64,000 nt of DNA from Pontibacter sp. G13 (GTDB taxonomy: Bacteria; Bacteroidota; Bacteroidia; J057). The DNA lies in assembly GCF_031851795.1 (NCBI RefSeq), contig NZ_CP134696.1, positions 3,244,501 to 3,308,500 of the forward strand, written 5' to 3'. Shown one piece after another: positions 6,666 through 34,405 of the stretch. The notes under the pieces are model-generated. The model saw only the letters and a program-made list of their open reading frames with translations, did no database searches and was not told the origin of the DNA. Position numbers and translations under genes: made by a program. Numbering within the stretch: position 1 is the stretch's first letter; each line of letters begins with the position of its first letter.

Positions 6666-9443
6666 ATGCCTATCACCTTAAAACGCCTGATTTGTTGGTC
6701 TTGGGCCCTTTGTGCCTGTCTTTCCCTGACCTTTGGCCAGCAGGCACTCCCCCCGTTTGTCGTTCAGACCATCAGCTCGGATTGGCCGAGTGGAGTGGGA
6801 ATCACCTTCGCCGAGAATGGCCAGATGTATGTCTGGGGACTCGACGGCAAAATTTACGTGGGTGAAAATGGACTTCGAGCCGCCCAACCGCTTCTTGACA
6901 TCTCCGAAGAAATCGCTCGCTATGGCGACCACGGACTGATCGGGATGGCGCTGGACCCCAACTTCCTCCAAAATGGATATTACTATCTGCTGTACGCAGT
7001 AGATCGTCATCATCTGTTGTTCTTCGGTACGCCAGACTATGATCCTGCCGTATCTACCCCCAACCAAGCCACGATCGGCCGTGTTACCCGATATCAGGCA
7101 GATGCTGCAACAGATTTCAAAACCACCATTCCCGGAAGCCGCAAGGTCTTGATTGGAGAGACCATCGACAGTGGAATTCCTTTGCTGCATTACTCTCACG
7201 GTGTTGGTTCGCTTGCTTTCGGGAACGATGGGACCCTGATGGTTTCCTGTGGAGATGGCGGATCTTATCTGTATGGGCCAGACATTGGTGGCGATGAAGA
7301 TGGTGCTTTTGCCAGTCAGGCATTGCTGGATGGGATCATCACGCCCACCGAAGATGTTGGTGCCTATCGCTCTCAATTGGTCAATACCCTCAGCGGAAAA
7401 CTCCTCAGAATCGACCCGCAAACAGGAGACGGAATTCCTTCCAATCCGTTCTATGACGCTTCCAATCCTCGTGCTCCCCAATCTCGTGTGTGGGCACTAG
7501 GATTTCGCAATCCATTCCGATTCGTGTGGAAACCCGGCACCGGAAGCCACAATCCCGAGGATGGCGATCCCGGCGTTTTCTATCTAGGAGATGTGGGCTG
7601 GGCCGAGTGGGAAGAAGTCAATGTCGTCACCCAAGGCGGCCAAAATTTTGGATGGCCCATTTATGAAGGATTGGTTGAGCGCTGGGAATTCAGGTGGGGA
7701 GAGGTGCGATACAATCAAGAGCAGCCCAATCCCATGACAGAATGTGAACATGATTTCTATCAGTTCCGCGAACTTCTGCACCCTCACACCCTTAAACCCA
7801 ATCCATTTTTCGCGACTATCTGTGATCCTGACGTAGCGGTTTCTCCTTCGGCCCGGACGTTTATCCATCGACCACCGATGATCACCTACTCCAATCGCGA
7901 CTACAACAATGTGGAGCAGAACGTCTATGTCCCCGGTTATGACTCCGAGGGCAACGGGATGGCCATTAGCCTACTCACCGAAGATGCCCCCGTGAAAGTT
8001 GATACCTTCCGCGGTACCTGTTCGGTCGGTGGTTTATTTTATCAAGGCGATGCATTTCCAGAGGAATTTCAGGGAAAATATTTCGCCGCTGATTTCAACC
8101 CCGGTTGGATCAAAGTCATGGAAACCGATGATGATCACCATTTCGCAGGAGAATCACAGTTGGTCTCCAATCTGTACCGCTTCACCGGTATGGCTGAAAA
8201 TCCCGAGGATGGATGCATCTACACCATGGCCTACCTCGATGGGAACGTCGGACGTCTGAGCCGCATTTGCTATGGAGGCAATTCCTTCCCGCAGGTGGAA
8301 ATCGCCTACGACCAGCAATTTGGTCCCGGCCCTTTGACGGTTCAATTTGACGGTACAAATGTTTTTGATCCCGATGATGACCCCCTGACTTATCATTGGG
8401 ATTTCGGGGACGGTACGACCAGCAACGAAGTTTCACCAAGCCATACTTTTGCCTCCAACGATGGGGCCCCGACGGGATACCGCGTGCAACTAGTGGTGGA
8501 AGATACAGCTGGAGGCGTGGGCGGAGATTTTGTGATGATTTCCGTCAACAATACCCCGCCTACCGCAGAGATCAGCTCTTTCCAAGATGGCGACCTATAC
8601 TCCATGACAGGAGTGACCAATTTGCCACTGGAGGCCCATGTGACCGATGCGGAATTCTCGGTCGATGAATTGGACTTCGAATGGCAGGTTAATCTCCACC
8701 ACAACACACATTTCCATCCTGAGCCGATCGTCACAGAACCATCCGGCATGGCGCACATCCTACCTGAGGGCTGCGGCAATGAAACCTTCTGGTATCGCGT
8801 GACCCTCAAAGTCACGGACCCCGCAGGATTGTCCACCCAAGTGGAAGCATCGCTTTATCCGAATTGCGACGAGCCACTGGCGGAATTTGAATGGGTTACC
8901 GCCGAAATCGTCAATCCTGATGAGCCTGATCAGATTCAGATCAACTGGAAAACCTTGCGGGAGACGCCCAACAGCACATTTGAAATCCAGATTTCCGAAG
9001 ATCGCGTGGAGTTTCACACGATCGGGACCCTGGATGCCACTGCCCCGACAGGCACCCAATACGGATTCACCTATTTCGACCCGGAGTGGGAGAATCACTT
9101 CCGCGTATTTTACCGGATCATGATCAAAGGTCCGGACGGGCTGGTGGATTTCTCGCAGGTGGTTCCCGTGGTATTCGAGACCAAATCTCCCGTTTGGGTA
9201 TTCCCAAATCCAGCTCAGGACATCCTGTATTTTGAATTTCAGGAGGGCCAAGGCAATGCTCAGGTCCAGCTTTACTCATTGGATGGCAAGGCGATCTCCA
9301 CCACCTTCTGGGGGAGTGTAGAGGGCGAGGAAGAGGTTCGTAGTTTGGACATTTCTGGCCTCAAGCCCGGCACTTACATCTATCGAGTCACCGATGGTCC
9401 GGAGATCTACAATGGTCTGTTCGTGAAAGCGGGCAAGGAGTAA
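6666..9443 (+). CDS. Secreted glucose/sorbosone dehydrogenase-like protein with PKD and T9SS sorting domains
   Basis: This 925-residue protein has a signal peptide (about residues 1-25), then a six-bladed PQQ-dependent sugar dehydrogenase-like propeller (about 30-510), a PKD domain with WDFGDGTTS (about 540-630), a second Ig-like beta region, and a C-terminal T9SS type A sorting domain (about 840-925, beginning VFPNPAQDILYFEF and ending GTYIYRV..NGLFVKAGKE). Propeller motifs include the GLIGMALDPNF and VWALGFRNPFRF stretches characteristic of the sugar dehydrogenase family. The sorting domain predicts export through the T9SS and attachment or release at the cell surface, with PorU/PorV encoded at 56.7-62.9 kb. 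Substrate and use of PQQ are not shown by the sequence. Confidence 0.87.
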   Translation: MPITLKRLICWSWALCACLSLTFGQQALPPFVVQTISSDWPSGVGITFAENGQMYVWGLDGKIYVGENGLRAAQPLLDISEEIARYGDHGLIGMALDPNFLQNGYYYLLYAVDRHHLLFFGTPDYDPAVSTPNQATIGRVTRYQADAATDFKTTIPGSRKVLIGETIDSGIPLLHYSHGVGSLAFGNDGTLMVSCGDGGSYLYGPDIGGDEDGAFASQALLDGIITPTEDVGAYRSQLVNTLSGKLLRIDPQTGDGIPSNPFYDASNPRAPQSRVWALGFRNPFRFVWKPGTGSHNPEDGDPGVFYLGDVGWAEWEEVNVVTQGGQNFGWPIYEGLVERWEFRWGEVRYNQEQPNPMTECEHDFYQFRELLHPHTLKPNPFFATICDPDVAVSPSARTFIHRPPMITYSNRDYNNVEQNVYVPGYDSEGNGMAISLLTEDAPVKVDTFRGTCSVGGLFYQGDAFPEEFQGKYFAADFNPGWIKVMETDDDHHFAGESQLVSNLYRFTGMAENPEDGCIYTMAYLDGNVGRLSRICYGGNSFPQVEIAYDQQFGPGPLTVQFDGTNVFDPDDDPLTYHWDFGDGTTSNEVSPSHTFASNDGAPTGYRVQLVVEDTAGGVGGDFVMISVNNTPPTAEISSFQDGDLYSMTGVTNLPLEAHVTDAEFSVDELDFEWQVNLHHNTHFHPEPIVTEPSGMAHILPEGCGNETFWYRVTLKVTDPAGLSTQVEASLYPNCDEPLAEFEWVTAEIVNPDEPDQIQINWKTLRETPNSTFEIQISEDRVEFHTIGTLDATAPTGTQYGFTYFDPEWENHFRVFYRIMIKGPDGLVDFSQVVPVVFETKSPVWVFPNPAQDILYFEFQEGQGNAQVQLYSLDGKAISTTFWGSVEGEEEVRSLDISGLKPGTYIYRVTDGPEIYNGLFVKAGKE

Positions 9444-9459
9444 TTCCACGATCAAGCTA

Positions 9460-9499
9460 GCAAAAAGGCTCATCTCGGAAAGGAGGTGGGCCTTTTTGC
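9460..9499 (+). terminator. Terminator after dehydrogenase gene
   Basis: The arms GCAAAAAGGC (9460-9469) and GCCTTTTTGC (9490-9499) pair perfectly, with the T-run embedded in the 3' arm. It lies 16 bp beyond the stop codon. Confidence 0.75.
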
Positions 9500-9505
9500 A
9501 TAGGT

Positions 9506-9675
9506 GGGCGTGCCCCCGCGTGCTGGTGACAATGACTCCGCCTGGCATTTGATTCGCGGGGTCGTGTGCTGCATGGGTTCGCTGCGCTCCGTCCTCCGCT
9601 GAGGGCTCCGGACCGCTCCTCTGGGAGCGCCATTCCGCCCACTCACGCCGCCTCAGGCCATCCGCACCTTCTTTT
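9506..9675 (+). repeat. Dispersed GC-rich intergenic repeat, copy A
   Basis: This is one of three divergent copies of a roughly 170-185-bp element in the window (others at 48627-48792, minus strand, and 56465-56649). It begins GGGCGTGCCCCCGCGTGCTG, identical over this stretch to copy C, and ends CCGCACCTTC. GCGGGGTCG and CACTCACG blocks lie in between at comparable positions. It is much richer in G and C than flanking DNA and has no coding frame shared between copies. Confidence 0.7.
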
Positions 9676-9735
9676 GGAGGGACCACTGTTCCTAGCGGAG
9701 CGCAATTCACGGTTTTTCCTTTCCCATCCTCGCCT

Positions 9736-11141
9736 GTCATCCTCGACGGCAATCAACCTCGGCCTATGCGTCGGCGCCGATCGGTGATCTCCTGAGCGCG
9801 GAACCAAATTCCAAGCCCCCCATCCTTGTGTCATTCTGAAAAATCTGAAGGACAGGCTCGTGGGCGGGGGATTTATTCAGAATCTTGGGAGGAATGAATG
9901 CACAGATCCTGAATCGACGCCATCGCTTCGAAATTTTGCGGGATGACGCAGGACATAGAGGCTGGGCAGGTATGCTAGTGCTGTAGGCGCGACATGACAC
10001 AGGCAAGGGTTTTAACCCTTGACTGCGAGATCCTGAATCGACGCCATCTCTGGGAGCCTAGGCTATGGCCGTTCAGGATGACAGGGTGGGTGATGCGGAA
10101 GAAATTCATCCTGCCCTGCGGGCGCCCGACCTGCGACTCCCGTTGCAGGGACGTGAGATCCCGCATAAATTCCGCCGCCCAACGTCCCTCGCTGGGAATT
10201 TTCCGGGATGACGCAATTTATGTAAGAATGGCTGATCATTCGGTCCCAAACCCCAAGACCCATCACGTCATACTCGACGGCCATGGCCACGGCCCCTGCG
10301 TCGGCGCCGATCGGGGATCTCCTGAGTGCGGAACCAAATTCCAAGTCCCTATTCTTGTGTCATTCTGAAAAATCTGAAGGGCAGGCTCGTGGGCGGGGGA
10401 TTTATTCAGAATCTTGGGAGGAATGAATGCACAGATCCTGAATCGACGCCATCGCTTCGAAATTTTGCGGGATGACGCAGAACATAGAGGCTGGGCAGGT
10501 ATGCTAGCGCTGCAGGCGCGACATGACACAGGCAAGGGTTTTAACCCTTCACTGCAAGATCCAGAATCGACGCCATCTCTGGGAGCCTAGGCTATGGCCG
10601 TTCAGGATGACAGGGTGGGTGATGCGGAAGAAATTCATTCTGCCCTGCGGGCGCCCGACCTGCGACTCCCGTTGCAGGGACGTGAGATCCCGCATAAATT
10701 CCGCCGCCCAACGTCCCTCGCTGGGAATTTTCCGGGATGACGCAATTTATGTAAGAATGGCTGATCATTCGGTCCCAAACCCCAAGACCCATCACGTCAT
10801 ACTCGACGGCCATGGCCACGGCCCCTGCGTCGGCGCCGATCGGGGATCTCCTGAGTGCGGAACCAAATTCCAAGTCCCTATTCTTGTGTCATTCTGAAAA
10901 ATCTGAAGGGCAGGCTCGTGGGCGGGGGATTTATTCAGAATCTTAGGAGGAATGAATGCACAGATCCTGAATCGACGCCATTGCTTCGAAATTTTGCGGG
11001 ATGACGCAGAACATAGAGGCTGGGCAGGTATGCTAGCGCTGTAGGCGCGACATGACACAGGCAAGGGTTTTAACCCTTCGCTGCAAGATCCAGAATCGAC
11101 GCCATCTCTGGGAGCCTCGGCTATGGCCGTTCAGGATGACA
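9736..11141 (+). repeat. 529-bp direct tandem repeat, about 2.7 copies
   Basis: The same block recurs with a period of exactly 529 bp. For example TCATTCTGAA begins at 9831, 10360 and 10889, and CAAGGGTTTTAACCCTTG lies at 10004-10021 with counterparts 529 and about 1058 bp later. Copies 1 and 2 differ at only a few positions; the third is cut off after TTCAGGATGACA near 11141. Each unit contains TGTCATTCTGAA and an inverted TTCAGGATGACA about 250 bp apart, like terminal inverted repeats. Open frames inside it are artefacts that repeat with the DNA. No protein is recognised. Confidence 0.92.
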
Positions 11142-11277
11142 TAATGGGGTGGAGAATTCATGCCCAAAAGGCCCGCTTGGCGAGCTCACTTGGATGCCGG
11201 GCAAGCTCGGGGAGATTCCACCTCTGCCTCCGACGCTCAGGCCGCGGCTCATGGCAGGCTGGAATGACCGGATAAGG

Positions 11278-11637
11278 GTTCCCGAGATCCGCACTTGCAG
11301 CAGCAAGAGCTCCGCCGGGATGGACCCAAGGGGCTGTTTGATGGGGATCTTGCGTCGCGAAAGGGTGGAGATCGAGGTTCTCATAAAGCGAATTTCGAGG
11401 GGCATAGTGGGGCTATGGGCTGAGAAATTCGCGAAATGAGGTTCCCGAGATCCGCACTTGCAGCAGCAAGAGCTCCGCCGGAATGGACCCAAGGGGCTGT
11501 TTGATGGGGATCTTGCGTCGCGAAAGGGTGGAGATCGGGGTTCTCATAAAGCAAATTTCGAGGGGCATAGTGGGGCTATGGGCTGAGAAATTCGCGAAAT
11601 GAGGTTCCCGAGATCCGCACTTGTAGCAGCAAGAGCT
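11278..11637 (+). repeat. 163-bp direct tandem repeat, about 2.2 copies
   Basis: GTTCCCGAGATCCGCACTTG begins at 11278 and 11441, and again with one change at 11604, giving a 163-bp period. The first two units are nearly identical. The third stops after AAGAGCTCC and runs straight into CCCATCAAACAGCCCC (11638-11653). That sequence is the exact reverse complement of a 16-mer inside units 1 and 2 (11330-11345 and 11493-11508). The array lies directly 3' of gapA and has no credible coding content. Confidence 0.9.
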
Positions 11638-11655
11638 CCCATCAAACAGCCCCAT

Positions 11656-11758: not shown

Positions 11759-12778
<1,020 letters not shown>

Positions 12779-33955: not shown

Positions 33956-34405
33956 TTACTTTTTCCGCTTCTCTTGAAAAAAGGCCTGCATCAGTCCTCG
34001 GCAAGCATCTGACTCGACTCCGCCTTGCACGATGGTTTTGGGATGTAAAAGGGAAGGTTGATGTCGAGAAAACCCCGTTTTGGGTTCAGATGCACCATAA
34101 ACAACCCTTCCCAGTTGAGCCCACTTGATCGCCCCAGCACACATGACACAGGGTTCGATGGTCACGAAGAGCGTACAATCTTGAAGGTATTTGGCTCCGA
34201 AATACTCACATGCCGCGGTGATTGCCAGCATTTCGGCATGGGCGGTAGGATCGTGCAGACGCTCGGTTTGATTGTAGCCTTTTCCGACAATTCGATAATT
34301 GGCCACCACCACCGCTCCAATGGGAATTTCTCCTTCCTCATAGGCTTGTTCGGCCAGCATCAGGGCTTGCCGCATAAAATGATCGTCAGAATGAATGGAG
34401 AGCAT
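33956..34405 (-). CDS. tadA: tRNA adenosine(34) deaminase
   Basis: This 149-residue zinc deaminase converts A34 of tRNA-Arg(ACG) to inosine. The zinc motifs are HAEML (His56, Glu58) and PCVMCAGA (Cys86, Cys89). GEIPIGAVVV near residues 25-34 and the YGASEPKTG loop are typical of TadA. The length is normal. Its ATG overlaps the stop of maf by one base, so the two are translationally coupled on the minus strand. The family also contains guanine deaminases, but the PCVMCAGAI and K-T-G contexts favour TadA. Confidence 0.92.
   Translation of the reverse strand: MLSIHSDDHFMRQALMLAEQAYEEGEIPIGAVVVANYRIVGKGYNQTERLHDPTAHAEMLAITAACEYFGAKYLQDCTLFVTIEPCVMCAGAIKWAQLGRVVYGASEPKTGFSRHQPSLLHPKTIVQGGVESDACRGLMQAFFQEKRKK

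Follow-up and report, generated by a model that had tools for sequence, protein, structure and literature searches.

The window, the whole stretch of 64,000 nucleotides analysed here, belongs to Pontibacter sp. G13, whose assembly comprises 7.67 Mb in 3 contigs and is 98.1% complete. It contains a tandem array with a period of 529 bp in a convergent 2.3-kb gap between the gene of a GSDH-domain protein (6666-9443, plus strand) and gapA (11759-12754, minus strand). A type IX secretion sorting domain (PF18962) was identified in the protein neighbouring the array. A terminator-like hairpin of gapA is located at 11689-11661, and inverted arms at 9460-9499, after the GSDH-domain gene, resemble a second one by eye, which the terminator scan did not report.

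The repeat island and its setting

The first-pass annotation, made from the sequence alone, described an exact head-to-tail repeat without a protein. The repeat is real and consists of two full units with partial ends (Table 1), but "exact" is too strong because the full units are identical at 519 of 529 positions. This identity of 98% bears out the recent tandem duplication that had been proposed. The partial third unit matches the second at 261 of 266 positions, and the diverged start of the array is identical in 70 of 84 alignment columns. No long plausible gene was found in the array; the open reading frames of 80-124 amino acids there we take as chance. As to the repeat island suggested between the dehydrogenase and gapA, nearly the whole gap is repeat DNA because the stretches on both sides of the array are dispersed repeats as well. 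The different, 163-bp tandem repeat has only distant partial matches elsewhere (73%), in one other region (L120) among those compared. Such arrays do not show a clear bias towards convergent gene gaps, as 16 of 47 array gaps were convergent compared with 50 of 199 pairs of open reading frames, based on crude calls of the latter.

Table 1. Coordinates of the repeat features in the window
Feature	Position	Strand	Remarks
Dispersed repeat, GC-rich, preceding the array	9501-9735	none	Several other array regions of the same genome have copies, up to 86% identical
Tandem array	9736-11141	none	Partial 9736-9817; unit 1, 9818-10346; unit 2, 10347-10875; partial unit 3, 10876-11141
Dispersed repeat after the array	11142-11276	none	From sequence comparison with other regions of the same genome
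163-bp tandem repeat, 2.2 copies	11277-11639	none	
GTCAT...ATCT long hairpin, type TCTGAA	9830-9885 (copies 10359-10414, 10888-10943)	+	Fold z -2.98
Half-element, arms unpaired	9906-9948	-	Apparent chimera of two hairpin types; fold z +0.25
Acido-Lenti-1-like double hairpin, unit 1	9977-10022	-	Hairpin 1, 10003-10022; linker; hairpin 2, 9978-9990; RF01687 26.6 bits; R1 56.5 bits (copy part of the R1 model)
GTCAT...ATCT long hairpin, type CCTGAA	10028-10082	-	Fold z -2.22
GTCAT...ATCT long hairpin, type CCCGGAAAATTCC	10156-10212 (copy 10685-10741)	-	Fold z -2.14
Degenerate GTCAT...ATCT element	10266-10319	+	Fold z +0.51, no better than shuffles
Acido-Lenti-1-like double hairpin, unit 2	10506-10551	-	RF01687 26.9 bits; R1 49.1 bits
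Acido-Lenti-1-like double hairpin, unit 3	11035-11080	-	RF01687 27.2 bits; R1 51.8 bits

Structure of the repeat unit

The array is most likely a composite of REP-like DNA hairpin elements that was amplified in tandem. Within each unit, GTCAT...ATCT hairpins, which are REP-like and of the CGTC-tag type, form a mosaic with a single minus-strand double hairpin of 46 nt. The sequences TGTCATTCTGAA and TTCAGGATGACA had been interpreted as the two ends of one 250-bp element. Instead, each is one arm of a separate hairpin that is about 55 nt long: TGTCATTCTGAA forms the hairpin at 9830-9885 with TTCAGAATCT, which follows 45 nt later, and TTCAGGATGACA forms the one at 10028-10082 with the immediately preceding AGATCCTGAA. 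In units 2 and 3, one arm of the CCTGAA-type hairpin is altered, and the strict scan for GTCAT...ATCT hairpins misses both copies.

The inner palindrome CAAGGGTTTTAACCCTTG, also pointed out previously, forms hairpin 1 of the double hairpin; it is intact in unit 1 and differs by one change in units 2 and 3. Judged from covariance-model matches, the double hairpin is a divergent relative of the Rfam family RF01687, "Acido-Lenti-1 RNA", with which it shares an 8-bp hairpin, a 12-nt linker, a 5-bp hairpin, the conserved linker end, and two covarying helices. All copies in the window score 26.6-27.2 bits and miss the gathering cut-off of 37 bits, whereas 29 of the 135 matches at E<=10 in the entire genome exceed it. 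We built a covariance model, R1, from 17 copies of five genomes (alignment A2, 17 sequences, gap-free).

Copies in the Pontibacter genome

The 529-bp block is not unique in its genome, where further copies had been anticipated and blastn returned 329 matches. Among 40 genomes searched for homologues of the unit, the sole match was the genome of Pontibacter sp. G13 itself; the 39 others, of which 12 belong to the same family, had none. R1 detected at least 150 copies of the double hairpin in this genome, grouped in 45 clusters, the strand of which follows no simple pattern along the chromosome by eye. Among the regions examined, dozens of other tandem arrays have periods from 70 to 899 bp.

The GTCAT...ATCT hairpins are similarly abundant. 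The strict scan found 213 of them in 375 kb of regions from this genome, chosen mostly for matching the unit; one shuffle of these regions gave 1, and 124 kb from other genomes gave none. A single hairpin (34088-34147), which may be chance, was found in the other 61 kb of the window. The exact pattern occurs at 220 sites genome-wide and its reversed control at none, and the hairpins stand in other orders elsewhere in the genome. One region (C1:463612-465455) holds at least 22 such hairpins, with two types alternating in opposite orientation in a repeat of about 171 bp. No transposase was found for this hairpin family. The CGTC-tagged repeats, known in Bacteroidetes, have no dedicated transposase according to Di Nocera et al. 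2013 (PMC3733652). The GTCAT...ATCT hairpins resemble them in having a C/TGTC tag followed by AT as the first stem bases, but differ by their longer imperfect stems and loops, a CT tail, and tandem composites, whereas CGTC-tagged REPs have stems of 8-9 bp, loops of 4-5 nt, and a CCA tail.

The search for empty sites with 91 copies of the element returned 21 junction-spanning matches, nearly all of which are accounted for by tandem copies or by mosaics that have diverged. The copies in the window align at 72-73% identity with a composite that lacks the element in another region (L113), a comparison that is suggestive only. Element copies do not have clean boundaries, and their flanks are themselves repeats.

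Two Y1 transposase genes

There are two Y1_Tnp genes in the genome, both outside the window, in line with the earlier statement that the window carries no transposase. One of them, tnpA, is a single-copy gene (C1:1,435,514-1,435,960) encoding 150 amino acids with the motifs DHVH, WQ, and YIRRQKEHH. Table 1 of Quentin et al. 2018 (PMC6006769) gives DH[IV]H, WQ, and Y---Q--HH with about 148 amino acids for TnpA subclass 1.2, and that paper also mentions low copy numbers for the subclass. The protein carries the signature of subclass 1.2, an assignment by motifs rather than by a tree. Its sole NCBIfam match was NF033573 (IS200/IS605 family transposase), without a match to REP_Tyr_transpos; among the solved TnpA chains of the IS200 group, 2fyx was the best match (5.3e-13), and the ISHp608 transposase was also matched. 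The HUH histidines, the tyrosine, the glutamine, and the HH pair are kept in all 25 aligned TnpA sequences, suggesting that activity is under selection.

Ten copies of the double hairpin lie within 1.5 kb of tnpA, whereas a random 3.4-kb stretch has at least ten in 0.027% of draws. In an inverted pair of double hairpins beside the gene, the two linkers also pair together (fold z -6.27).

The other Y1 gene (L130:4686-5625) encodes a RAYT (NF047646) and has its own GC-rich repeats containing CGCGGACTTCCGG on both sides; together they are a separate REPtron. Copies of the Acido-Lenti-1 element are also found near this gene, one of them only 142 bp away, which counts against specificity for tnpA. 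A TacA-like antitoxin gene (PF08681) and, after it, a GNAT acetyltransferase gene (C1:5,487,352-5,488,127, corresponding to L130:3853-4628), likely a toxin-antitoxin pair, separate the RAYT gene from an Acido-Lenti-1 array.

Association of the double hairpin with tnpA in other genomes

Of 296 genomes searched within the phylum, 134 had TnpA relatives at 1e-10, and we scanned the best-match loci of 29 other genomes. R1 matches were present within 1.5 kb of tnpA at 25 of the 29 loci with at least 15 bits and at 21 with at least 20 bits. Without the four loci that had supplied sequences to the model, the counts were 21 and 17 of 25, respectively. The independent Rfam model RF01687 found matches at 13 of the 29 loci, 35 in total at E<=0.5; about 0.3 matches would be expected in 96 kb, since those genomes contain at least 356 RF01687 matches (E<=0.01) in about 121 Mb. 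As a control, we used the 22 RAYT-type loci of the same genomes (12 of the 29 have one), none of which reached 15 bits, the single match having 9.3 bits. No R1 match was detected in 36 arbitrary stretches of the same genomes. Among the next 20 genomes by TnpA similarity, 10 had a match of at least 10 bits, six of at least 15, and three of at least 20. This fading of the link with distance from the query TnpA would be expected if the element and the enzyme were diverging together.

The orientation of the elements around tnpA is also regular. Relative to the direction of the gene, the element nearest to it upstream is inverted (minus strand) on 21 of 24 sides, and the one nearest downstream is direct (plus strand) on 15 of 17. 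This inverted arrangement, found on 36 of 41 sides in total (sign test, p 8e-7, a value that overstates independence because the genomes share ancestry), recurred on 12 of 14 sides in the second set. Near-complete copies often lie 10-100 bp from tnpA, and in a frequent layout a lone second hairpin is 10-30 bp from the gene with a full double hairpin further out. On the Persicobacter sp. JZB09 plasmid CP012861.1, inverted elements stand 75 bp upstream and 49 bp downstream of tnpA. This locus (L283) was the only one with at least 15 bits among seven plasmid loci (L283-L289) with weaker TnpA relatives or IS200-type genes; at another, L285, a single R1 match scored 10.2 bits and lay about 1.9 kb away from the gene. 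By inspection, the REP-type 5' GTAG foot was absent just 5' of hairpin 1 in all 33 copies from other genomes; at hairpin 2, the linker end (usually NNNC) serves as the 5' foot.

Within the phylum sample, the element occurs in 22 of 26 genomes with a close TnpA (four have a close TnpA without it) compared with 44 of 269 others. Among the 66 element-bearing genomes other than that of Pontibacter sp. G13, 23 do not have a tnpA match at 1e-10, many of them from one genus. Genomes of the genus g82 (e.g. G079 and G049) contain 11-19 scored copies and no TnpA match at 1e-10; these copies are perhaps relics or served by a diverged enzyme. In 15 further named genomes, the element (E<=0.01) was found in six, a TnpA match in four, and both in only three, so the element and TnpA do not always occur together.

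Discussion

The array is probably a REP-like composite, in which the Acido-Lenti-1 double hairpin is the cognate repeat of an IS200-like Y1 (HUH) transposase of the subclass-1.2 type, and copies spread before being amplified in tandem. We consider Acido-Lenti-1 itself most likely to be a REP-like DNA element of TnpA subclass 1.2. Hairpins are recognised by the Y1 transposases of the IS200 group, whose substrate is single-stranded DNA (PMC6006769, PMC8266576). In the Pontibacter genome, one tnpA lies within inverted copies of the element, a REPtron-like locus, and at least 150 copies are scattered over the genome. TnpA might recognise the element folded as single-stranded DNA, cut beside the hairpin, and spread the copies, the processed form possibly being the double hairpin or its inverted dimer. 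Some copies would have come to adjoin the second, longer GTCAT...ATCT hairpin family, and recombination or replication slippage between repeats could then have amplified composite units to tandem arrays of varied period, here 529 bp. The array, its mosaic structure, the copy numbers, the covariation, the controlled association with tnpA, and the inverted arrangement are observations; cutting, transposition, and mobilisation are what we infer in this scheme, and the route of tandem duplication is likewise deduced, from the 98% identity of the units and the varied periods elsewhere. The earlier suggestion of a MITE-like non-autonomous element was partly right, as the elements are non-autonomous and based on hairpins, but terminal inverted repeats bounding a single element are not present.

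The hairpins might instead have accumulated passively, as selfish or inert sequences that persist solely through slippage and gene conversion, no transposase being active at present. The many tandem arrays of differing period and the element-bearing genomes without tnpA would fit such an origin. We regard it as rather unlikely in view of the catalytic residues, whose conservation in TnpA points to maintained activity.

The first-pass annotation also considered a structured RNA, and the match to a real Rfam family gives this idea some substance. Acido-Lenti-1 was introduced as a probable RNA of Acidobacteria and Lentisphaerae (Weinberg et al. 2010, PMC2864571) and has the Rfam type "Gene; sRNA". 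A 2026 paper on Tannerella (PMC13298647) presents it as an ncRNA of little-known function and suggests regulation of neighbouring genes, and a paper on Vibrio (PMC10059132) lists copies that are treated as ncRNA. If it were a functional small RNA or a 3'-UTR element, the array would be an amplified RNA gene. Covariation is indeed strong in both helices, with 12 of 13 pairs changing on both sides and 329 cells against 100 shuffled, in an alignment that is biased towards the model to which it was fitted and that drew on 14 of the 29 tnpA loci and part of the loci in the Pontibacter genome. However, covariation fits a DNA hairpin and an RNA equally well. DNA is favoured because the copies form inverted pairs around a Y1 gene, occur in tandem arrays on either strand, and cluster at one type of transposase. 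Additionally, a scan for sigma-70-like promoters, which does not cover Bacteroidota promoters, found none in the repeat island. The RNA interpretation is unlikely, and in this setting the family most likely acts as repetitive DNA with a link to a Y1 transposase.

A bolder version of the transposase model, in which one subclass-1.2 TnpA serves both hairpin families of the array and Acido-Lenti-1 is a mobile DNA element and not an RNA, is unlikely as a whole. It draws on the 5' tag TGTC, which in this genome is common to the GTCAT...ATCT hairpins and to hairpin 2 of Acido-Lenti-1; through this common tag, the CGTC-tagged REPs could have their missing enzyme in the subclass-1.2 transposase.

It seems improbable that tnpA belongs to an insertion sequence targeting Acido-Lenti-1 hairpins, with the repeats as its landing site and not its ends. 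There is a precedent in ISPpu9, reported as inserted into REP sequences (PMC8450116). Insertion into one element would, however, leave two halves of the same orientation, whereas near-complete inverted copies flank tnpA, and the gene is single in the Pontibacter genome. A MITE bounded by TGTCATTCTGAA/TTCAGGATGACA and mobilised by a DDE transposase, to which the two inverted 12-mers about 250 bp apart in each unit had pointed, is rejected as hardly credible because the claimed ends pair locally in separate hairpins, which are found genome-wide in other orders.

The preferred pairing of Acido-Lenti-1 with a subclass-1.2 TnpA can be compared with known systems. REPtrons of REP/REPIN and RAYT (class 2) similarly combine many intergenic hairpins with a low-copy Y1 gene that has inverted copies of the dispersed repeat on both sides, but here the transposase is of class 1, with the subclass 1.2 signature beside IS200 TnpA, and the element is a double hairpin. 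The TIRYT/TIRtron loci, as portrayed by Di Nocera et al. 2013 (PMC3733652), also have a Y1 gene that lies between inverted repeats, palindromic in some cases, and further copies of the repeats at other places, a likeness by description and not by sequence. For subclass 1.2, Quentin et al. 2018 (PMC6006769) report no REP and generally no IS-like ends, in contrast to the double hairpins flanking most close homologues here. Compared with Acido-Lenti-1 as annotated, the element is a transposase-tied repeat in another phylum. Our literature search, which covered few subscription papers, found no paper in which Acido-Lenti-1 is linked to a transposase, or subclass 1.2 to a REP. The association gives a partner to two orphans, a Y1 subclass reported without REP and an Rfam family of unknown function still annotated as ncRNA. 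If true, Acido-Lenti-1 annotations in Bacteroidota would be REP-like DNA, and the two would offer a short, testable protein-DNA pair outside the RAYT class.

R1 matches also occur outside Bacteroidota: a Planctomycetota MAG (G338) has 7 and no TnpA relative, and a KSB1 MAG (G341) has 25 together with four TnpA relatives.
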